This document shows positions 19,734 through 35,841 of a DNA stretch of 64,000 nt, in pieces. A model generated the notes under the pieces. That model was not told where the DNA came from, made no database searches, and was given only the letters and a program-made list of their open reading frames with translations. Both the position numbers and the translations under genes were made by a program. The DNA is from Candidatus Eiseniibacteriota bacterium (GTDB taxonomy: Bacteria; Eisenbacteria; RBG-16-71-46; CAIMUX01). How positions within the stretch are numbered: position 1 is the stretch's first letter; the number at the start of each line of letters is the position of its first letter. The DNA lies in NCBI GenBank assembly GCA_903844735.1, contig CAIMUX010000121.1, positions 1 to 64,000 of the forward strand, written 5' to 3'.

Positions 19734-22004
19734 TCACCGACCCTTCGCGTCCTCCAGCATGCCGGCCTCGACCACGGCGAAGGCCGTCATGTTCAAGATG
19801 TCATTCATTTCTGACTGCGGCTGGAGCACGTGCACCGGTTTCGCCATCCCCTGGAGGATGGGTCCGATCTGCTCCGCTCCGCCCAGCCGCTGCACGAGTT
19901 TGTAAGCGGCGTTGGCCGCCTCAAGCACCGTGAAGATGAGGACATTCGCCGTCCCCCCCGCGAGCTTGCTGAAGGGAAACAGGCTGGAGAGGAGCCCGGG
20001 GACCACGGCGGTATCGGCATGCACCGGCCCGTCGACGACCAAGTCCGGCTCTTCCTTCGCGAGGATGCGCAGCGCCTCCTCCACTTCCGCGATCCCCGGC
20101 CCACGGGCGGTCCCGAAGTTGGAGTAAGAGATGAACGCCACCCGCGGGATGACGCCGAATTCACGCGCCGTCTGCGCCGTCTGCCGCGCGATCTCGGCCA
20201 GGGCCCGGCCATCCGGCCGGATGTTGACGGTTGTATCGGCGAAGAAGTACATCTGGTCACGTGTGAGCATGACGTGGACGCCGCTGACCCGGCTCGCCCC
20301 CGACTTGAGTCCAACGATCTGCACGCAAGGACGGATCGTCTCGGGAAGTCTCTGGGCGATCCCGGCGATCATGCCATCGGCGTCTCCCAGCCGCACCATC
20401 ATCGCACCGAATTCGTTCGCCGAACGCATGGCGATCCGCGCGCCATCCAGGGTCTCCCCCTTGCGCTGCCGCAGGCGGTAGTACTCCTGGACATAGGCAT
20501 CGAACCGCGGGTCGTGCTCCGGATCGATGATCACGGTGTCGCCGAGGTCGAGATCGAGCTCGCGGCACTCCTGTTCGATCACCTCACGGCGTCCGATGAG
20601 GATCGGATGGGCCATCTTCTCCTCGCGCACCATGGCGGTGGCGCGGAGGATGCGGCGGTTCTCCCCCTCGGGGTAGACGATCCGCTTGGGTGCGCTGCGC
20701 GCCTTGTGGATGATCGTGCGCATGACCCCGCGGGTCTTCCCGAGCAGACTCTCCAGCTGGTCGCGGTACTCGTCGAGATCAAGCGGCTTCTGCGCCACCC
20801 CGGTTTCCATGGCTGCGCGCGCCACGGCCAAGGCCTCCCAGACCAACACGCGCGAATCGAACGGCTTGGGGATCAGGTACTCGCGGCCGAAGTGGAAATA
20901 TTGGTCGCCATACGCTTTGCTGACCGAGTCGGGCACATCCTGCTTGGCCAGCTCCGCGAGGGCGCGGGTGGCCGCCATCTTCATCGCTTCGTTGATGGTG
21001 GTGGCGCGGCAATCCAGCGCTCCGCGGAAGATGAAGGGGAAGCCGAGAACGTTGTTGACCTGGTTCGGGTAGTCGGACCGCCCGGTGGCCATGATGACGT
21101 CCTTGCGAGCGGCCACCGCATCCGGGTAGGTGATCTCAGGATCCGGGTTGGCCATCGCGAAAACGATCGGGTTCGCGTTCATGTGCTTCAACCACTCGGG
21201 CTTCAACAACCCCTTCCCGGAGAGGCCGAGGAAGACGTCGGCTCCCTTCAGCGCGTCCTCCAGCGTGCGCGCCGAGGTCTCGCGGGCGAACTGCTCCTTG
21301 TAGGGGTTCATCCCTTCGGTGCGGCCTTTGTAGATCACGCCTTTCGTGTCGAGCATGAGAATGTTCTCGAGCCGGATCCCGAGGCTGATGTAGTGCTTGG
21401 AGCAGGCAATGCCGGAGGCGCCGGCGCCGGAAACCACAACTCTCGTATCTGACGCTTTGCGCCCAGTCAGTTCGAGAGCGTTGATGAGCGCGGCCCCCGA
21501 AATGATGGCCGTGCCGTGCTGGTCATCGTGGAAAACCGGGATCTTCATCGTGCGCTTCAGCTCTTCCTCAATGATGAAGCATTCGGGCGCTTTGATGTCC
21601 TCGAGATTGATCCCACCAAAGGTGGGTTCCAGAAGCTGGCAGGTGCGGATGATCTCCTGCGGGTCCAGGCTGTCGATCTCGATGTCGAAGACATCAATGT
21701 CGGCAAAGCGCTTGAAGAGGACCCCCTTCCCCTCCATCACCGGCTTGCCGGCCAGAGCGCCGAGGTTGCCTAGCCCCAGCACGGCGGTACCGTTGCTGAT
21801 CACCGCTACGAGGTTTCCGCGCGCGGTGTACTCGAAGGCCAGGTCAGGGTCCTTCTCGATCTCGAGACACGGTTCCGCCACCCCCGGGGTGTAGGCCAGC
21901 GAGAGATCCCTCTGCGTCAAGCACGGCTTGGTCGAGTTCACCTCGATCTTTCCCTTACGCCCTCGGCTGTGGTACTCCAGTGCGTCGCTCAATTTCTTCG
22001 TCAT
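19734..22004 (-). CDS. maeB: NADP-dependent malic enzyme with C-terminal phosphotransacetylase-like domain
   Basis: This 756-residue MaeB-type fusion oxidatively decarboxylates malate to pyruvate, producing NADPH. All catalytic features of the malic-enzyme half are present. These are Tyr in LAYTPGVAEPC, the general-base lysine K93 in KPVMEGKGVLFK, metal ligands E135-D136 in NLEDIKAPEC, D160-D161 in VFHDDQHGTAI, the Rossmann VVSGAGASGIA and the substrate Asn segment SDYPNQVNN. The C-terminal half (from about 430) is a phosphate-acetyltransferase-like domain, often regulatory (YPEGENRRILRA; FISYSNFG). The start ATG 22004 has GGGAGGAGGAATC before it. A degenerate paralogue lies at 33583-35841. 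Confidence 0.96.
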   Translation of the reverse strand: MTKKLSDALEYHSRGRKGKIEVNSTKPCLTQRDLSLAYTPGVAEPCLEIEKDPDLAFEYTARGNLVAVISNGTAVLGLGNLGALAGKPVMEGKGVLFKRFADIDVFDIEIDSLDPQEIIRTCQLLEPTFGGINLEDIKAPECFIIEEELKRTMKIPVFHDDQHGTAIISGAALINALELTGRKASDTRVVVSGAGASGIACSKHYISLGIRLENILMLDTKGVIYKGRTEGMNPYKEQFARETSARTLEDALKGADVFLGLSGKGLLKPEWLKHMNANPIVFAMANPDPEITYPDAVAARKDVIMATGRSDYPNQVNNVLGFPFIFRGALDCRATTINEAMKMAATRALAELAKQDVPDSVSKAYGDQYFHFGREYLIPKPFDSRVLVWEALAVARAAMETGVAQKPLDLDEYRDQLESLLGKTRGVMRTIIHKARSAPKRIVYPEGENRRILRATAMVREEKMAHPILIGRREVIEQECRELDLDLGDTVIIDPEHDPRFDAYVQEYYRLRQRKGETLDGARIAMRSANEFGAMMVRLGDADGMIAGIAQRLPETIRPCVQIVGLKSGASRVSGVHVMLTRDQMYFFADTTVNIRPDGRALAEIARQTAQTAREFGVIPRVAFISYSNFGTARGPGIAEVEEALRILAKEEPDLVVDGPVHADTAVVPGLLSSLFPFSKLAGGTANVLIFTVLEAANAAYKLVQRLGGAEQIGPILQGMAKPVHVLQPQSEMNDILNMTAFAVVEAGMLEDAKGR

Positions 22005-27877: not shown

Positions 27878-27997
27878 GGGTCGGTCTCCTTTCATGGATT
27901 TCGGCCGGGGCCACGCCATCGAGAGCGTTCCGGCCGGCCGGTGTCTGCATGCCGATGCGCGTCAGACGACGAGGAAAGCGCCGCCGCATCATCGAGA

Positions 27998-28025
27998 AGC
28001 ATCACCGGAAGGCCGTGATTGTCAA
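27998..28025 (-). promoter_or_regulatory. Possible sigma-70-type promoter for mdh
   Basis: A perfect -35 (TTGACA, 28025-28020) is followed after 16 bp by a weak -10 (GATGCT, 28003-27998), about 120 bp before the mdh start. The remaining 27878-28146 holds nothing else I can support. Confidence 0.4.
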
Positions 28026-28146
28026 GCTCTCTTGCGGCGATCTGAGAGTCGGAGCAATCCAGCTTCGGTCAGACGCACGCCCACCGAGATCGCCACGAAG
28101 ATGGAGTCGCGGCCGGGAAGAGAGTATTCTTTGGCGGGTAACACGA

Positions 28147-31100
28147 ATGGATGAAGAGACACCCAAATCGCCGACGCCGACGACGGGTCTGGATCGCCCC
28201 CTCGAAGCCACGGGCCTCGAGGGGCCCTCCGAGACCACGCGCCTCGATGGGCCCTCCGAACGCACGGACTTCGCCCCCCCCCCGCAATACACCGGGACCA
28301 ATTTCGGGGCACTGGAGCCCGCGCTTCGGGACCTGGAATCCCAGTTCACGCTGGTCATGGGCCGTCCGGAGCGCGTCGTGGAGGCGTGCCGAATCCTCTC
28401 CGTCCAACTCGAGGCGGCGGACGACCCGGACCTCGCGGATCGTTGCCACGCTCGGGTAGTCACTCAACTGCACGTGCGGCAGGGCGGCGTCGCGCAAGCG
28501 CTGATCCCCTTCCTGGAGGAGCGAGCGCGGCGCGGACCGAACCCTCGCCGCATTATCCTGAGCCTCCTCGTAGCCCGCGATGATGTTGCGCGGCGCCACG
28601 GGCTTCGACTGGCGTGCGAGATGATCGAGTCGGGGCGGATCGCAGCCGACGTCGCGGCGATCCGGGGCCTGGCGTTCGCGATCGAGGAAGACGAGGCTGC
28701 GGGGAGGGATGTCGCGCTTCTGGAGCGGGTCAGAGATGCCTTGCGGGGCATCAATCTCGCCCCCACGTCTGGGGAGCTGGTGGACCACGGGCCGGTTGCG
28801 CGTGGTGCGGAACCCCTCTCCCCCGCTTCCGCTGGGCTGCACGACCGGCTTGAGGCGCTTCTCCTGCAGGCGCCGGACCCGAGAGTGCGATTCCTGGCCG
28901 CCCGGCTCCTCGATCTCCCGGGAACCCCCGTGCCCGCTGACCGGCTGGCGCGCCTCTTCGGCGCCGAGACGGCTGCCGTGCTCGCCCCGTATCTGGCGTT
29001 CACGCGGGCCACGCACCGCAACATGGTGGAGCTGACCCCCGAATCACGAGTTTCCCCCGCGCTCCTTTCCTCGATGCAGGACGCGGAGCGCGCCCTCGGC
29101 CGGCCCCTGCTCGGCGAAGTGCTGGGCGAACTCGGCTGGGACCGCCTCGCCTGGGGCATCTCGTGCCGACGCCTCGTGGGCTTGAGCCTGGACGGAGGGT
29201 TCCCGCTCGCCGTCACGCCGGCCGAGGCGATGCTCCTCGACTCGTGCGGGCCCGCGCGGCGCACATGGGACCGTTTCCTCGTCGTGGCCCATGGTGGGTC
29301 GGCGTCGGGTGAGAACGACAACGACATGGAAGCGACGGCCGTCCAGCGGTTTCGCAAGTATAACATCCTCCACGCGGAATTGCTGGGCGAAATCCTCGAG
29401 GTCGCGCCACTCACCCCCGCCAAGGTGCGCCGGATCGTCGAACGAATGGAACAGGTGGTCAGCCACTTCGCCGTTCTGTTCAGAGAGCATTCCGAGGATG
29501 CGACGCGGGTCGAAGCCTGCTTCGCCGCCCTCCGCGATCGGGCCATCCGGCTGATGGCGGAGGCGCCCGATGACCAGCCGCTGCAGGCCGAGGTGGCCCG
29601 CGTCGTGCAGATGTTCGAGGATCCGCGATCACTTGACGATGTGCGCACGCTGCACGGCCTCAAGCGCTACCTGCACCAGCAGGGACTGCGTCTCGCGTTT
29701 CGCGCTTTCCGTTCCGGTCGCGCAACCAACCGGACCGTCGACGTAGCCATCGCCAACGCCAGTCGCGTCCTCCAGGTGGTTCGGCGGATTCGCTACATCG
29801 ACTTCGAACCGGACCCGGGAGCCGAGCCGGGAGATCTCCCCTACCCGGTCGCCCTCATCGCTGAGGTACTGGGCCGCCGCCTCGTCCACGGAAAGATCGA
29901 GTCGCCCGACTTCGAGATCCTGGCCTACGGGAACGAAATCCAGATCTTCATCGGGTTCCGTAATCATCCGGTTTTCCTGCGCCTCGATCTCTCGCCGCCC
30001 CAGCGCGGCGGCATGATCGACCTTGAATACTACGGCGTGAGCCAGTACGAGCTCGACCGCCACCCCGATCTTTCGCTTCAGTGGGTGCAGCGGGTGTTCC
30101 GCCGCCTCGACTTTGACGTCCGCGTCGAACAGTTCCGTCTGCACATCCGCTACGACAAGGAGCGGGCGCTCGACTTGGGCGACCTCCTCGCGCATGTGCG
30201 CATCCTCGGTTACCTCTTGCCCCACTTGATGGACCTCGACTGGGTGATCGCCGTGCTCGACTATCCAGAGACGGCCAAGGCGCAGGTCGCCGACGCGTGG
30301 GCCGACCTCATTCCTGACTGGGGCTGGCTCCCGATCGCGGAACTTCTGACCGCGGACCGACGGCACATCCTGCGCGGAATCGCCGCGGACCCGGCGGGAG
30401 AACGCGAGGTCCGCTGGGATGGACACGGGGAGTATCGCGACCGATTCATTGGCGTGCCCGATCGGGCGGTATGGGGTCGGATCCGTGCGCAACTCGAAGC
30501 GGGCGGCCTGGCCCGGTTTGTCCCCTGGCCGGAGTTGACCGAACTTCCGGTCGCGCAAATTCCGCTGGAGAAGTTTCTCTTCACGCCCCTCCGCGAGGCC
30601 GTACACCTCGGAGGCCTGCGAGAGACTCATGCGGGGCCCATGCCGACGGCTCCCGACGGGACACCCTCACCGCACGAGGCCGAGGCGTTAGCACAGATCC
30701 TTCTCCGCGGCGGGGCGCCCCTCGATGAAGCGGCGAGGATCGCCACCGTCGTCGGATCGATCGAGCGACATCTTCGCTTCGTCACGAGCGGCAGCATCCA
30801 GGGGTACCCGGTCCAGCGGGCCACGCTTGTTTTGCGCGGCGAGCGGGTGGAATTGTCGGTCCTGAGGGACGCCGACGGCATCGCGCGACTCGCGCTCGCT
30901 GACGACTGCCCGATGCAGAGCTGGACCGGCACCCGCGGTCGATCGCATCTCGGCGTCGGACCCCGACTCGATTGCCGCGAGCTGATTCGGCGGCTGCGTC
31001 GCGACAACTACGTGGCCGTCGCCTACGAGTCGCCAATCGAGCAGGACGGCCGACGGGCGGCGCTCACTGCCGTCTTCGCCGCACCGAACGCGCTGGCCCC

Positions 31101-33576
31101 GCCCGGCCACTCCCCCGGCGACCTAGTCATCGAGGGGATCGTAGCCTCGTCCGGCAGGGCGGCCGGTTTTGCACGCCTTGGCACCGAAGGGCGCTCGCTG
31201 GATGAGCTGGACGGTGCCATCCTCTTCGCTCCTGCGTTCCGGCCGGACGACACGCCGCTTCTTCGCCGGTCTGCCGCGATTGTCTCGACCGGTGGAGGGA
31301 TTCTGAGCCACGCCGGGCTGATAGCACTCGAACTGCACAAGCCCGCGCTCGTCATCTCCGGTCGTTGGAGGAAGGATCCCACCGATGGGGGCACGGCCTC
31401 CTTCGAGGGGACGCCGGATGGCAGCAGCGCGCTCGCCTACCGGCACTTCGACTTTCGGGAGGACGAGCGGGCGATCGGTCCGTACGCTGTGCTCCTGCGG
31501 CGCGACCTGCACGAGCGTGAGCAGATTCTTCGCGAGGGAGATCTTGTCGTGGTGGACGCCGAAGTCGGAACCCTCACCGTTCTCGGGCAGGATCGCGACG
31601 CCCTCGCTCTCCAGCGAGAGCTGCGCCAAATCGACACGGTCGCCGGGGAGCTGGGACGGGAAGAGGCCGGACCCCGGCTCCTTCTCCTGCGCGGGCGGTG
31701 GCACCGGGCTGTGCACCAATTGAAGAAGCTCCTTTCCCGCATCGACCGACCCGCGCTAGCGCGCCACGCCGCGCGGGAGCTGCTCTTCGCGCGCAGCGCC
31801 CCGTCGTCGATGCCCGGCCGCGACGACGTCGGAGGGCTGCTCCACGCGCTCTTCGCGAATGCGGCGGTAGGCGAGGCCGCCCGGCTGGCGGCGCGGCGAC
31901 AGCACGTCGAACTGGCCCGGCGGCACGGGGCCTATGTCCGCGAGGCGCTGAGGATCATCCCGATCACGGACAGCGTGCCGGAAATTCTTCACCTCCGCCT
32001 GGGTGTGATCCAGGTGCGCAGGCGCCTCGACGCGCTCGCCCGACTGCTGAACTCGGTCGGCATGGCCACGGCCTATGCCGGACAGCATCCGGACCTCGAC
32101 TTCTGCGCGCGGCGGCGCCTCGATGAACTGCGGGAACAGCTTCGCCGTGAGTTGGCGTCGACCTCGGACAAGGAAGGAACATCGGACGCGGCAAGTGCCA
32201 CCAACGATGGCGGGCCGTCCTGGATCCGGCGGCATCGTCTCGAACGTCTGGAGTCGCTAGAACGCGTGTTGCCCGGAGCGGATGATACGGCCGTCACTTC
32301 CGCGGAGAGCGCGATTCCCCGGGAGAGCGCGGCCTCCTACGAGGGCGCGGCCGGCGCGGATGGACTGAGAGATCGGCAAACCGATCGACCGGAGAGAGCC
32401 AGGAGCCTCGCAGCGCAGCGTCGCGACTTGGCACGCCGTCTCCCCGGGCGCCTGATCCTCGACTCCCGGGACGGCGGACGCGAGCTCGCTCCCCTCATCG
32501 GTAGCAAGGGCGCCAACCTCGGCGAGATCGCACGGATCCTCGGACCCGATCGGGTCCCTCCGTGGTTTGCCACTACCGACGCGGCGTTTCAGGAGCTCAT
32601 GGCCGGTCCACCGGGTCGCGCGGCCGCGGCGGTGGGTATTGATGCGGCTTGCCCGTCGCTGGCAGCGGCCATCGACGAAATCCTGGGGCGACCGGACAGC
32701 CGCGCAGCACGGAAGGCAGCGGCCATCCGGCAGCTCTGGGAAGGAGTGCCGCTTTCCCCGCGCCTCGAGGCCGAGATCGACGCGGCGTACCACGCCCTGG
32801 GAGAGGGGTGCTTCGTCGCCATCCGCTCTTCCGCCTTCGAGGAAGACACAGAGGGCAGCTCGTGGGCCGGACAGTTCGACACTTTCCTTTTCATCCAGAG
32901 CGAAGAGGCGGTGCGCGATCACGTCAAACTGGCGATGGCGAGCCTGTGGACCGAGCGGGCCCTCGTTCACCGCGAGGAGGACGGCGACGTGACGACGCGG
33001 CGAGGCGACGGCGATGTCGTATCGAGCGAAGAGGCCGGCGACCCGACGATGGGGCGAGGTGGCGGCGTCATCGTCCAGAGAATCGTGGACGCACGGGTGG
33101 CCGGCGTGCTGCACACCCTGTCCGCCACCGCCGGCCAGGCCCGCGAGATGGTCATCAACGTCGGCCTCGGTCTCGGCGAGGGGGTCGTCTCGGGGACGGT
33201 CGAGGTGGACCACATCGTCGTCTCGCGCGAAACCTCCCTCGAAGAGGATCCCCTCCGCGTTCACTACCTCGTGGGCGACAAGAGCAGCCGGATCGTCTTC
33301 GACCGGCTCGCCGGCTCCGGGACGCGCCGCGAGGAGACCCTCTACCACCAGCGCTTGCGTGCGGCCCTCGAGTACAGCGATCTCGGAGATCTCGTCCGCG
33401 CCGCCGCGAGCTTAGAGCGCGTCTACGGGTTCCCCCTCGATATCGAGTTCGCCTTCGAGGAGGACTCCCTCTACATTCTTCAGGTGCGACCCATCGTCGC
33501 CTTTCAGAACGCGCTGCGCGCGACGCTCGAACAGGCCCCGCTGACCCCGGTCGTCGCGCACGGCGGAAAGGATTAG
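28147..33576 (+). CDS. Giant PEP-synthase/PPDK-related dikinase with glucan-water-dikinase-like domain order
   Basis: This protein is about 1809 residues long. Residues 13-39 are three 9-residue repeats (TGLEGPSET type). The next 950 residues are helical and beta-rich and are not recognised. A phosphohistidine (PEP-utiliser) domain covers about 993-1108, with H1055 in STGGGILSHAGLIALELHKPA. A helical linker follows, then an ATP-grasp PPDK-N domain at about 1436-1793 (GSKGANLGEIARIL; IRSSAFEEDTEGSSWAGQFDTF; YILQVRPIVAF). A charged low-complexity insert (about 1612-1635) interrupts the ATP-grasp domain. The usual PEP/pyruvate TIM barrel is missing. PEP synthase and PPDK put the ATP-grasp domain first, whereas glucan water dikinase puts it last, as here. 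The acceptor is unknown. The ATG at 28147 lacks a clear Shine-Dalgarno sequence. A MaeB paralogue follows by 6 bp. Confidence 0.85.
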   Translation: MDEETPKSPTPTTGLDRPLEATGLEGPSETTRLDGPSERTDFAPPPQYTGTNFGALEPALRDLESQFTLVMGRPERVVEACRILSVQLEAADDPDLADRCHARVVTQLHVRQGGVAQALIPFLEERARRGPNPRRIILSLLVARDDVARRHGLRLACEMIESGRIAADVAAIRGLAFAIEEDEAAGRDVALLERVRDALRGINLAPTSGELVDHGPVARGAEPLSPASAGLHDRLEALLLQAPDPRVRFLAARLLDLPGTPVPADRLARLFGAETAAVLAPYLAFTRATHRNMVELTPESRVSPALLSSMQDAERALGRPLLGEVLGELGWDRLAWGISCRRLVGLSLDGGFPLAVTPAEAMLLDSCGPARRTWDRFLVVAHGGSASGENDNDMEATAVQRFRKYNILHAELLGEILEVAPLTPAKVRRIVERMEQVVSHFAVLFREHSEDATRVEACFAALRDRAIRLMAEAPDDQPLQAEVARVVQMFEDPRSLDDVRTLHGLKRYLHQQGLRLAFRAFRSGRATNRTVDVAIANASRVLQVVRRIRYIDFEPDPGAEPGDLPYPVALIAEVLGRRLVHGKIESPDFEILAYGNEIQIFIGFRNHPVFLRLDLSPPQRGGMIDLEYYGVSQYELDRHPDLSLQWVQRVFRRLDFDVRVEQFRLHIRYDKERALDLGDLLAHVRILGYLLPHLMDLDWVIAVLDYPETAKAQVADAWADLIPDWGWLPIAELLTADRRHILRGIAADPAGEREVRWDGHGEYRDRFIGVPDRAVWGRIRAQLEAGGLARFVPWPELTELPVAQIPLEKFLFTPLREAVHLGGLRETHAGPMPTAPDGTPSPHEAEALAQILLRGGAPLDEAARIATVVGSIERHLRFVTSGSIQGYPVQRATLVLRGERVELSVLRDADGIARLALADDCPMQSWTGTRGRSHLGVGPRLDCRELIRRLRRDNYVAVAYESPIEQDGRRAALTAVFAAPNALAPPGHSPGDLVIEGIVASSGRAAGFARLGTEGRSLDELDGAILFAPAFRPDDTPLLRRSAAIVSTGGGILSHAGLIALELHKPALVISGRWRKDPTDGGTASFEGTPDGSSALAYRHFDFREDERAIGPYAVLLRRDLHEREQILREGDLVVVDAEVGTLTVLGQDRDALALQRELRQIDTVAGELGREEAGPRLLLLRGRWHRAVHQLKKLLSRIDRPALARHAARELLFARSAPSSMPGRDDVGGLLHALFANAAVGEAARLAARRQHVELARRHGAYVREALRIIPITDSVPEILHLRLGVIQVRRRLDALARLLNSVGMATAYAGQHPDLDFCARRRLDELREQLRRELASTSDKEGTSDAASATNDGGPSWIRRHRLERLESLERVLPGADDTAVTSAESAIPRESAASYEGAAGADGLRDRQTDRPERARSLAAQRRDLARRLPGRLILDSRDGGRELAPLIGSKGANLGEIARILGPDRVPPWFATTDAAFQELMAGPPGRAAAAVGIDAACPSLAAAIDEILGRPDSRAARKAAAIRQLWEGVPLSPRLEAEIDAAYHALGEGCFVAIRSSAFEEDTEGSSWAGQFDTFLFIQSEEAVRDHVKLAMASLWTERALVHREEDGDVTTRRGDGDVVSSEEAGDPTMGRGGGVIVQRIVDARVAGVLHTLSATAGQAREMVINVGLGLGEGVVSGTVEVDHIVVSRETSLEEDPLRVHYLVGDKSSRIVFDRLAGSGTRREETLYHQRLRAALEYSDLGDLVRAAASLERVYGFPLDIEFAFEEDSLYILQVRPIVAFQNALRATLEQAPLTPVVAHGGKD
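28183..28263 (+). repeat. Three 27-bp repeats at the start of the dikinase-like gene
   Basis: Three imperfect in-frame 27-bp units encode TGLDRPLEA, TGLEGPSET and TRLDGPSER (residues 13-39). Confidence 0.75.
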
Positions 33577-33582
33577 AACGGC

Positions 33583-35841
33583 ATGATCCGACGCGAAGAA
33601 AGCCTCCGGTACCACGAGGGAGACCGGCCGGGCAAGATCGAAGTCAAGATGAGCAAGCCCTGCCTGAGCCCGCGGGAGATGCGCCTGGCCTACCTTCCCG
33701 GTGTCGCATGGCCCGTGCGGGAGATCGCCGACAACCCGGCCAACGTCTGGCGCTACACCGCGCGCGGCAACCTCGTCGGAATGGTGAGCAACGGGAGCGC
33801 AGTCCCCGGGCTCGGTGACGTGGGCCCCGCCGCCGCCAAGCCGATCCAGGAGGGGATCGCACTGCTCTTCAAGCGGTTCGCCGACATCGACGTCTTCGAT
33901 CTGGAGCTCGACGCGCGGGACCCGGAACGGATCGTCGACTTGGTGCGCACGCTGGAGCCGACCTTCGGCGCGATTTGCATCAAGGACATCCGCGCGCCCG
34001 AGGGGCTCGAGATTTATGATCGGCTGCGGGAGACGATGTCGATCCCTGTCTTCCACGAGAATTTGTACAGCACCGCGATCGTGGCCATGGCGGCTCTGAT
34101 CAACGCCCTCGACCTCGCGGACAAGGAGATCTCGTCGGTGCGGGTTGTCATCTGCGGCGCCGGCACCGTCGGTCTCGGGTGCGCGCGCCTGCTCACGGCG
34201 CTGGGCCACCCCCCCGAGAACCTGCTCCTCTACGACATCCGGGGGCTCGTCTCCCCCGACCGGGAAGACCTGCACAGATACCAGAGGGACTTCGCCCGCG
34301 ACGACGCGGCGCGCACCTTGGAGCAGGGGCTCAGGGGCGCCGATGTGTTCCTCGGCGCCTCCACGGGCGGCGTTCTGACCCCCGAGATGATCCGCTCGAT
34401 GAGCCGCTTTCCGATCGTCTTCGGCATGGCCACGCCGGCCCCTGAGATCGCCTACCAGGAGGCGCGCAGCACGCGGCGCGATGCCATCGTGGGCACGAGT
34501 TTCGGACAGGACCCGAATGCCATCGTCGACCTCCTGAGCTTCCCCTATGTTTTCCGCGGCGCCCTCGACGTGCAGGCCAAGGGAATCTCCGAACGGATGA
34601 TGCTGGCCGCGGCGCGCAGCCTCGCCGAGCTGGCGCGCGAGGAGGTCCCGGAGGAGGTGAGCCGCGCCTACGGCGACGAATCGTTCACGTTCGGCCCGGA
34701 CTACCTCCTGCCCATGCCGATCGATCCGCGCATCCTCGTGCGGCAGTCGGCCGCCGTCGCGCGGCAGGCGATGGAGGAAGGCCTCGCCGGTCGCTCCGTG
34801 CCGGTGGACGGGTACGAGGAGTCGCTCGCGGTGCGCCTCGGAACCACCCGCGAGTTGGTTCGCCGGCTCATCACCAAGGCGCGTTCCGTCAACCCGCGGA
34901 TCGTCCTGCCCGAAGGAACGAGCGAGAAGATCCTCCGCGCCTGCGCCCTTCTCATCGACGAGGGAATCGCCAACCCGATCTTGGTCGGCACCGAAGAGGA
35001 CGTGCACCGTGCGGCCGAACGCCTCGGGATCGACCTCGGCGGCGTCGCCATCGTCGACCCGGCCCACAGCCCGCACTTCGACGCCTACGCGGCGGAGTAC
35101 CTCACCCTCTGCGGTCGGCGCGGTGTGACTCCCGACCTCGCACGGACCCGGATGACCCACGCCCGGCACTTCGCGGCACTGATGCTACACAAAGGCGACG
35201 CCGACATGATGATCTGCGGCGCCACCGACCACTACGCCGAGTCGATGCGAACCGTCCTGGAGATTATCGGCCCCGCCCCCGGCGTGCGGCGGATCTCCAG
35301 CTTGCACATGGTCCACCGTCCCAAGGAGGTCTACTTCCTCGCGGACTGCTCCGTGAACATCGAGCCGGATGCCGAGGATCTCGCCGAGATCGCGCTGCTT
35401 GCCGCGCGGACCGTGCGCGCGCTTGGGATCGAGCCACGAGTGGCGATGTTGTCGTTCTCCAACTTTGGAAGCGTCGATCACCCGCTGGCGCGCAAGGTGC
35501 GGACAGCCACGCGGATCGCGCGCGAGCGGAACCCCGGGCTTGTTATCGAGGGGGAACTCCAGCTTGAGACGGCGCTCGACGCGAAGATCCGGCGGCGGTA
35601 CTTTCCGTTTTCGGATCTCACGCAGAATGCGAACGTTCTTGTTTTCCCCGACTTGCAGTCGGGGAATCTCTCGTTGCACTTGTTGCAACAGATCGGCGAG
35701 GGGATCGCGGTGGGTCCGATCTTGATGGGGACGCGGCTGCCGGTGCACGTGATCCAGCAGGGATCACCGGTGGATGATGTGGTGAATCTGGCGGCGGTGG
35801 GGGCGTTGCAGGTGGCGGGGGCGCTGACTGGAGGGATGTAG
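33583..35841 (+). CDS. MaeB-like malic enzyme/phosphotransacetylase paralogue with lost malic-enzyme active site
   Basis: This 752-residue protein aligns along its whole length with the MaeB at 19734-22004, but the malic-enzyme half has lost key residues. The catalytic lysine motif MEGK is QEGI (I92). The metal-ligand pair ED is KD (K134). The DDQHG segment is ENLYS (E159-N160), ANPDPE is ATPAPE, and YPNQVNN is DPNAIVD. The Tyr region LAYLPGVA and the nucleotide fold [17 protein letters not shown] remain. The phosphotransacetylase-like half (from about 435: [30 protein letters not shown]) looks intact. There are no stops or frameshifts, so it is under selection. It may be a regulatory or re-purposed protein working with the dikinase-like product, from which it is 6 bp away. 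Confidence 0.9.

Follow-up and report, generated by a model that had tools for sequence, protein, structure and literature searches.

The 64,000-nucleotide stretch of DNA analysed here (the window) carries a jointly inherited, strictly paired set of two genes: a giant dikinase (1809 aa, positions 28147-33576, forward strand) and, directly downstream, a hybrid malic enzyme with malic enzyme (ME) and PTA domains in which catalytic residues are replaced (the partner; 752 aa, 33583-35841, forward strand). The dikinase has both an ATP-grasp domain with its catalytic residues and a phosphohistidine domain with its catalytic His, and homology assigns these parts to the PEP synthase/PPDK superfamily. 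There is about an even chance that the two genes form a phosphotransfer system with the pseudo-malic-enzyme as its sensor or regulatory subunit. The swivelling-His dikinase mechanism gains functions by exchange of the acceptor domain, the known targets including rifampin, phenols, starch and proteins. In the present case, the acceptor-type domain is matched by none of the libraries used, and its only known setting is next to a malic enzyme that appears to have lost its chemistry. Should this proposal hold, evolution would have converted an active enzyme of the pyruvate-malate node into a dedicated part of a phosphotransfer machine. No description of this dikinase architecture was found in limited literature searches.

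Domain architecture of the dikinase

The dikinase frame is open to position 33576 from 28147, the start chosen in an earlier sequence-only reading, which is plausible, or from an in-frame alternative start at 27949 that would give 1875 aa. The frame is thus open for 198 bp (27949-28146) upstream of the earlier start, and the malate/lactate dehydrogenase-like gene that points away from it begins at 27919; the position of the true dikinase start therefore affects the promoter region.

Pfam matches are found to PEP-utilizers at residues 1022-1127 (E 4e-10) and to PPDK_N at residues 1449-1786 (E 2e-55), bearing out the proposed order of a phosphohistidine domain before a C-terminal ATP-grasp domain. 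The phosphohistidine swivel domain spans residues 991-1130 (31117-31536), as delimited by Pfam, alignment and PDB profile matches to PEP synthase (PEPS), PPDK and PTS enzyme I, and H1055, singled out previously, is the His of GGGILSHAG (codon 31309-31311). The ATP-grasp domain occupies residues 1441-1790 (32467-33516) and carries K1454, R1560, E1767, Q1779 and R1781. Both catalytic domains match PEP synthase best. They are separated by a variable, mostly helical stretch of about 310 residues (1131-1440, 31537-32466; AF2 model of residues 985-1809), in which the Pfam scan identified no family, giving weak single-member matches alone. This stretch is in addition to a long N-terminus, which was rightly described as unrecognised, as residues 1-990 have no match to any Pfam family at the family's cut-off, to any PDB sequence or to any PHROG; its length is about 990 residues, not the 950 first given.

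Within the N-terminus, residues 50-330 (28294-29136) are poorly conserved and helical, probably HEAT-like; AF2 secondary structure, a HEAT_2 match (E 0.04) and importin/HEAT-type Foldseek matches, none of them with E<=0.001, suggest HEAT repeats only weakly. Residues 485-760 (29599-30426) form a conserved core, proposed from conservation and alignments as the acceptor domain. The AF2 models of the two halves are moderate (mean pLDDT 66 and 65; pTM 0.47 for the N-terminal and 0.65 for the C-terminal half). In Foldseek, the C-terminal model matches structures of PEPS, RPH and HpeI with E as low as 1e-13, and the moderate N-terminal model has no Foldseek match with E<=0.001. In sequence and structure searches, the latter with this moderate model, the core matches no known fold or sequence; a viral structure library gave no match, and an RPH-like substrate domain was found neither by sequence nor by fold in the N-terminus (pTM 0.47). 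A T3SS-chaperone/YbjN-like fold was considered for the core from weak Foldseek hits to 2plg and ExsC, and was rejected when hhalign against E. coli YbjN failed (probability 0.2%).

The PEP/pyruvate barrel is absent from the dikinase, as had been stated: PEP-utilizers_C (PF02896) has no match in the frame by Pfam scan and genome search. A barrel concealed in the N-terminus was also looked for, and the region shows neither a barrel signature by sequence nor the alternating beta/alpha pattern of a TIM barrel in its AF2 secondary structure. In the genome of the window, PF02896 is found instead in a 999-aa PPDK frame (contig C138, 63673) and at 89609-90457 (reverse strand) on the contig of the window (C121), 25 kb past the window, in a 720-aa frame of roughly PTS enzyme I length. 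PPDK-type barrel frames (about 920-1000 aa, with only a 244-aa piece in G784) are present in all eight genomes that carry the dikinase, arguing that the giant dikinase is not the housekeeping PEP-forming enzyme. In seven of the eight there are also barrel frames of about 590-720 aa, presumably enzyme I from their length. Two other loci in the genome of the window (L012, contig C96, 2828-7863; L013, contig C30, 5675-8698) encode PPDK_N-type ATP-grasp proteins with no phosphohistidine domain apparent in their reading frames, one having a response-regulator-like and another a GAF-like N-terminus by eye.

Some of the genes around the pair belong to the PEP-pyruvate-malate node. The window has the malate dehydrogenase-like gene and a canonical hybrid malic enzyme, MaeB; OadB-like genes (oxaloacetate decarboxylase membrane subunit) adjoin the pair in the Ignavibacteriales loci L017 (14432-17422), L027 (370-1500) and L061 (1-1834), with an OadA-like gene also beside it in L017 and L061 (OadA and OadB named by eye from sequence), and there is a pyruvate kinase-like gene in L015. 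This context, together with the ME-like partner and an ATP-grasp domain closest to PEP synthase, would fit a rearranged or split enzyme making PEP from pyruvate (or oxaloacetate), with the N-terminal core or the partner standing in for the barrel. That reading is improbable given the separate PPDK-type barrel frames in 8/8 genomes and an N-terminus with no sign of a barrel. Nor does the dikinase look like a plain PEP synthase: it has neither the barrel nor the ATP-grasp/His/barrel order, and a barrel protein as long as PPDK is encoded elsewhere in its genome.

Distribution and conservation

The dikinase is known from eight genomes, that of the window and seven of the order Ignavibacteriales. 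Profile searches of 164 genomes from the order picked out these seven, and a search of 47 genomes from the phylum of the window found the gene in this one only. A collection scan with two short exact peptide patterns recovered three of the eight members, all three being relatives labelled Ignavibacteriales or Ignavibacteriaceae, so other phyla probably contain more of them. Scans of viral contigs found no relatives. The window dikinase is 30-35% identical to the seven others over its full length, and members share 30-65% identity among themselves. H1055, K1454, R1560, E1767, Q1779 and R1781 are kept wherever the sequence of a member extends over them; as seven more genomes carry the protein at full length with its catalytic residues, the frame is not a chance one. 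The possibility that the metagenome bin is contaminated was weighed. The dikinase gene has 68.5% GC, like its neighbours (66% for the window, on a contig of 114 kb), while the genomes of its relatives are AT-rich (33-40% GC), and thus an old transfer is likelier than contamination.

Conservation, measured as the share of columns identical in all sequences present, is lowest in residues 50-330 (2.5% invariant) and the helical linker (4.5%), and higher in the His domain (16%), the ATP-grasp domain (23%) and the core at 485-760 (25%). The highest value anywhere in the protein, 50% invariant positions, is reached over the 50 residues starting at 591, and the most conserved stretch, residues 586-700, lies within the N-terminus. 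Many of its invariant residues are charged (R605, N606, H607, R612, D614, D625, E635, H639, R668, D670, K671, E672, R673, D696, D698 and W699 are invariant in the core), and the charged and polar ones cluster around YGNE, FRNHP, GGMIDL, RYDKER and MDLDW. As the most conserved stretch, rich in invariant charged residues, the core may be an active or ligand site, and residues 586-700 probably hold the acceptor site. This lends support to the earlier suggestion that the N-terminus carries acceptor specificity.

Pairing and co-inheritance with the partner

The partner starts 6 bp past the dikinase stop in the window. At every one of the eight loci it lies directly 3' of the dikinase, with an overlap of a few bases at some; the other neighbours differ. 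In G060, where the dikinase is split over two contigs, its 3' part is 1 bp from the partner. A search of the 164 Ignavibacteriales-order genomes with a partner profile gave seven matches at 1317-1472 bits, one in each of the seven dikinase genomes and in no other. Below them come canonical enzymes, at 949 bits or less, and among the matches listed the two groups are clearly separated; very divergent or fragmentary orphan partners could lie among the lowest-scoring matches, beyond that listing. With genomes weighted equally and relatedness ignored, the chance of this overlap is 2e-12. The partners group together in a single clade (support 1.000) with a long stem, and dikinase and partner distances are correlated (r = 0.89), with 3 of 1500 permutations as high.

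Loss of malic enzyme residues in the partner

The partner has full-length homology to the two-domain ME-PTA enzymes (E 2e-203 to PDB chain 6zng). In Bdellovibrio MaeB, the catalytic residues are Y52, K107, E149 and D174, and the PTA domain of active MaeB serves as an acetyl-CoA sensor, binding this ligand and exerting control over the ME domain (PMC7902834). Partner residues were read by alignment to this enzyme, whose numbering is used for equivalent positions. In all eight partners Y52 is kept and the other three are replaced (K107 by I/M/T, E149 by K/Q, D174 by E/L); the N300 equivalent is also lost in most. The window copy has I92, K134 and E159 at replaced catalytic positions and T284 at the nicotinamide-contact Asn. 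The window holds its own internal control, since the canonical MaeB (19734-22004, reverse strand), 11.6 kb away and separate from the dikinase-partner module, keeps all catalytic residues, as do the 22 canonical homologues read (YKEDDN), which come from the top-ranked matches below the partner group. No description of a pseudo-malic-enzyme of this sort was found in a literature search of one open library.

Other features of the fold are retained. The Rossmann GAGxxG is kept in all but one of seven partners checked, and the D233/R242 equivalents are also present. Y576 and N718 are kept in the partners and Q683 in the seven checked; the partner PTA residue V746 is of the inactive sensor type (V/L/I). 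R535, an acetyl-CoA contact, is kept in the partners checked except for the window copy, where a Cys stands in its place, and none of the seven has Y721 or K722; their capacity to bind acetyl-CoA may thus be gone or altered. Sensing of acetyl-CoA by the partner is nevertheless plausible from its residues.

The altered ME pocket is itself conserved, 7/8 partners having HENLY[SG]TA, which could mean a new activity in place of a sensor role; the dikinase and partner would then catalyse two successive steps of a pathway. Conservation of K134, D135, E159, N160 and HENLY in 7/8 across two phyla, retention of GAGxxG and the D233/R242 equivalents, and the OadA-like and OadB-like genes beside the pair in some loci all fit such an enzyme. 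However, in the most divergent partner (L030/L037) most of these residues are gone, with T for I92, Q for K134, N for D135, L for E159 and SDN for GAG. This pattern is more in keeping with a structural or regulatory function, and a new activity is rather unlikely.

Proposed mechanism

The retained catalytic residues and conserved core of the dikinase, the adjacency in 8/8 loci, the co-inheritance and the loss of malic enzyme residues suggest that the dikinase and partner are a working pair. By analogy with the families, the ATP-grasp domain (1441-1790) would phosphorylate H1055 from ATP by the dikinase route, yielding AMP. The phosphohistidine domain would then swing to the core at 485-760, where the acceptor, perhaps a small and probably anionic compound of central metabolism, would be phosphorylated. 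The partner may be a malic enzyme scaffold that no longer carries out malic enzyme chemistry and that, presumably in a physical complex, signals the state of acetyl-CoA and/or dinucleotides to the dikinase, serving as its dedicated sensor or regulatory subunit, with regulation running from partner to dikinase. In its most specific form, this is an acetyl-CoA-gated dikinase with a new N-terminal acceptor domain that phosphorylates a central metabolite, turns ATP into AMP and is obligately controlled by a dead hybrid malic enzyme sensor, a combination that is possible but offered tentatively.

Comparison with known systems

PEP synthase is the closest relative of the catalytic domains, giving the best matches for ATP-grasp and His domains, and its catalytic Lys/Arg/Glu/Gln/Arg and His are kept in the dikinase. 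In PEP synthase and PPDK, however, the order is ATP-grasp, His, barrel, whereas in the dikinase it is reversed and the barrel is missing; relative to PEP synthase there are also the extra N-terminal residues and those between the catalytic domains.

Plant glucan water dikinase (GWD) has its His domain before its ATP-grasp domain, the same relative order as the dikinase, and this likeness, which extends to PWD and to the C-terminal position of the ATP-grasp, underlay the link to GWD drawn from sequence. That link does not stand up well: the carbohydrate-binding modules sought in the N-terminus were found by Pfam scan in none of the eight members, the catalytic domains are of PEPS type, the protein is bacterial, and its partner is an ME-PTA pseudo-malic-enzyme rather than a glycogen gene, with none among the neighbours inspected. 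It is thus very improbable that the dikinase is a bacterial glucan (polysaccharide) water dikinase. GWD has no solved structure (PMC12892837), making a comparison of folds impossible.

VadK (Rv1127c) of Mycobacterium tuberculosis is a barrel-less PPDK relative reported to act as a histidine kinase on methylcitrate-cycle enzymes (PMC13400623). The dikinase is likewise a barrel-less kinase of the PPDK superfamily, and VadK too is tied to central carbon metabolism (PMC13400623). The dikinase could by this analogy be a protein-phosphorylating regulator that hands phosphate on from His to proteins alone, either its partner or enzymes of central carbon metabolism, instead of to a small molecule, and its pairing with a catalytically dead metabolic enzyme would suit that role. 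VadK, however, is a simple ATP-grasp and His truncation that retains the PPDK order and has no large N-terminus, whereas the roughly 990 extra residues of the dikinase hold its most conserved part, suggesting a specific ligand or catalytic site; a regulator of this type is therefore unlikely. Phosphorylation of a metabolite in the core is the preferred reading. On the side of the partner, MaeB shares the ME and PTA domains, and differs in having the residues K107, E149 and D174 that are missing from 8/8 partners, and the N300 missing from most.

The two-component aromatic kinases HpeHI, CreHI and PpsAB (phenylphosphate synthase) have a substrate domain followed by the His domain on one chain and a separate ATP-grasp (PMC12167813). 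Whereas these have a second kinase subunit, the dikinase is a single chain with an ME-PTA partner, and its N-terminus has no detectable similarity to solved substrate-domain relatives such as RPH. The HpeI structure 9goj is nevertheless among the best matches of the dikinase ATP-grasp domain. The core lies in the same place as the substrate domain of HpeH, in front of the His domain, and the subunits of HpeHI or PpsAB, if fused, would give the order seen in the dikinase (PMC12167813).
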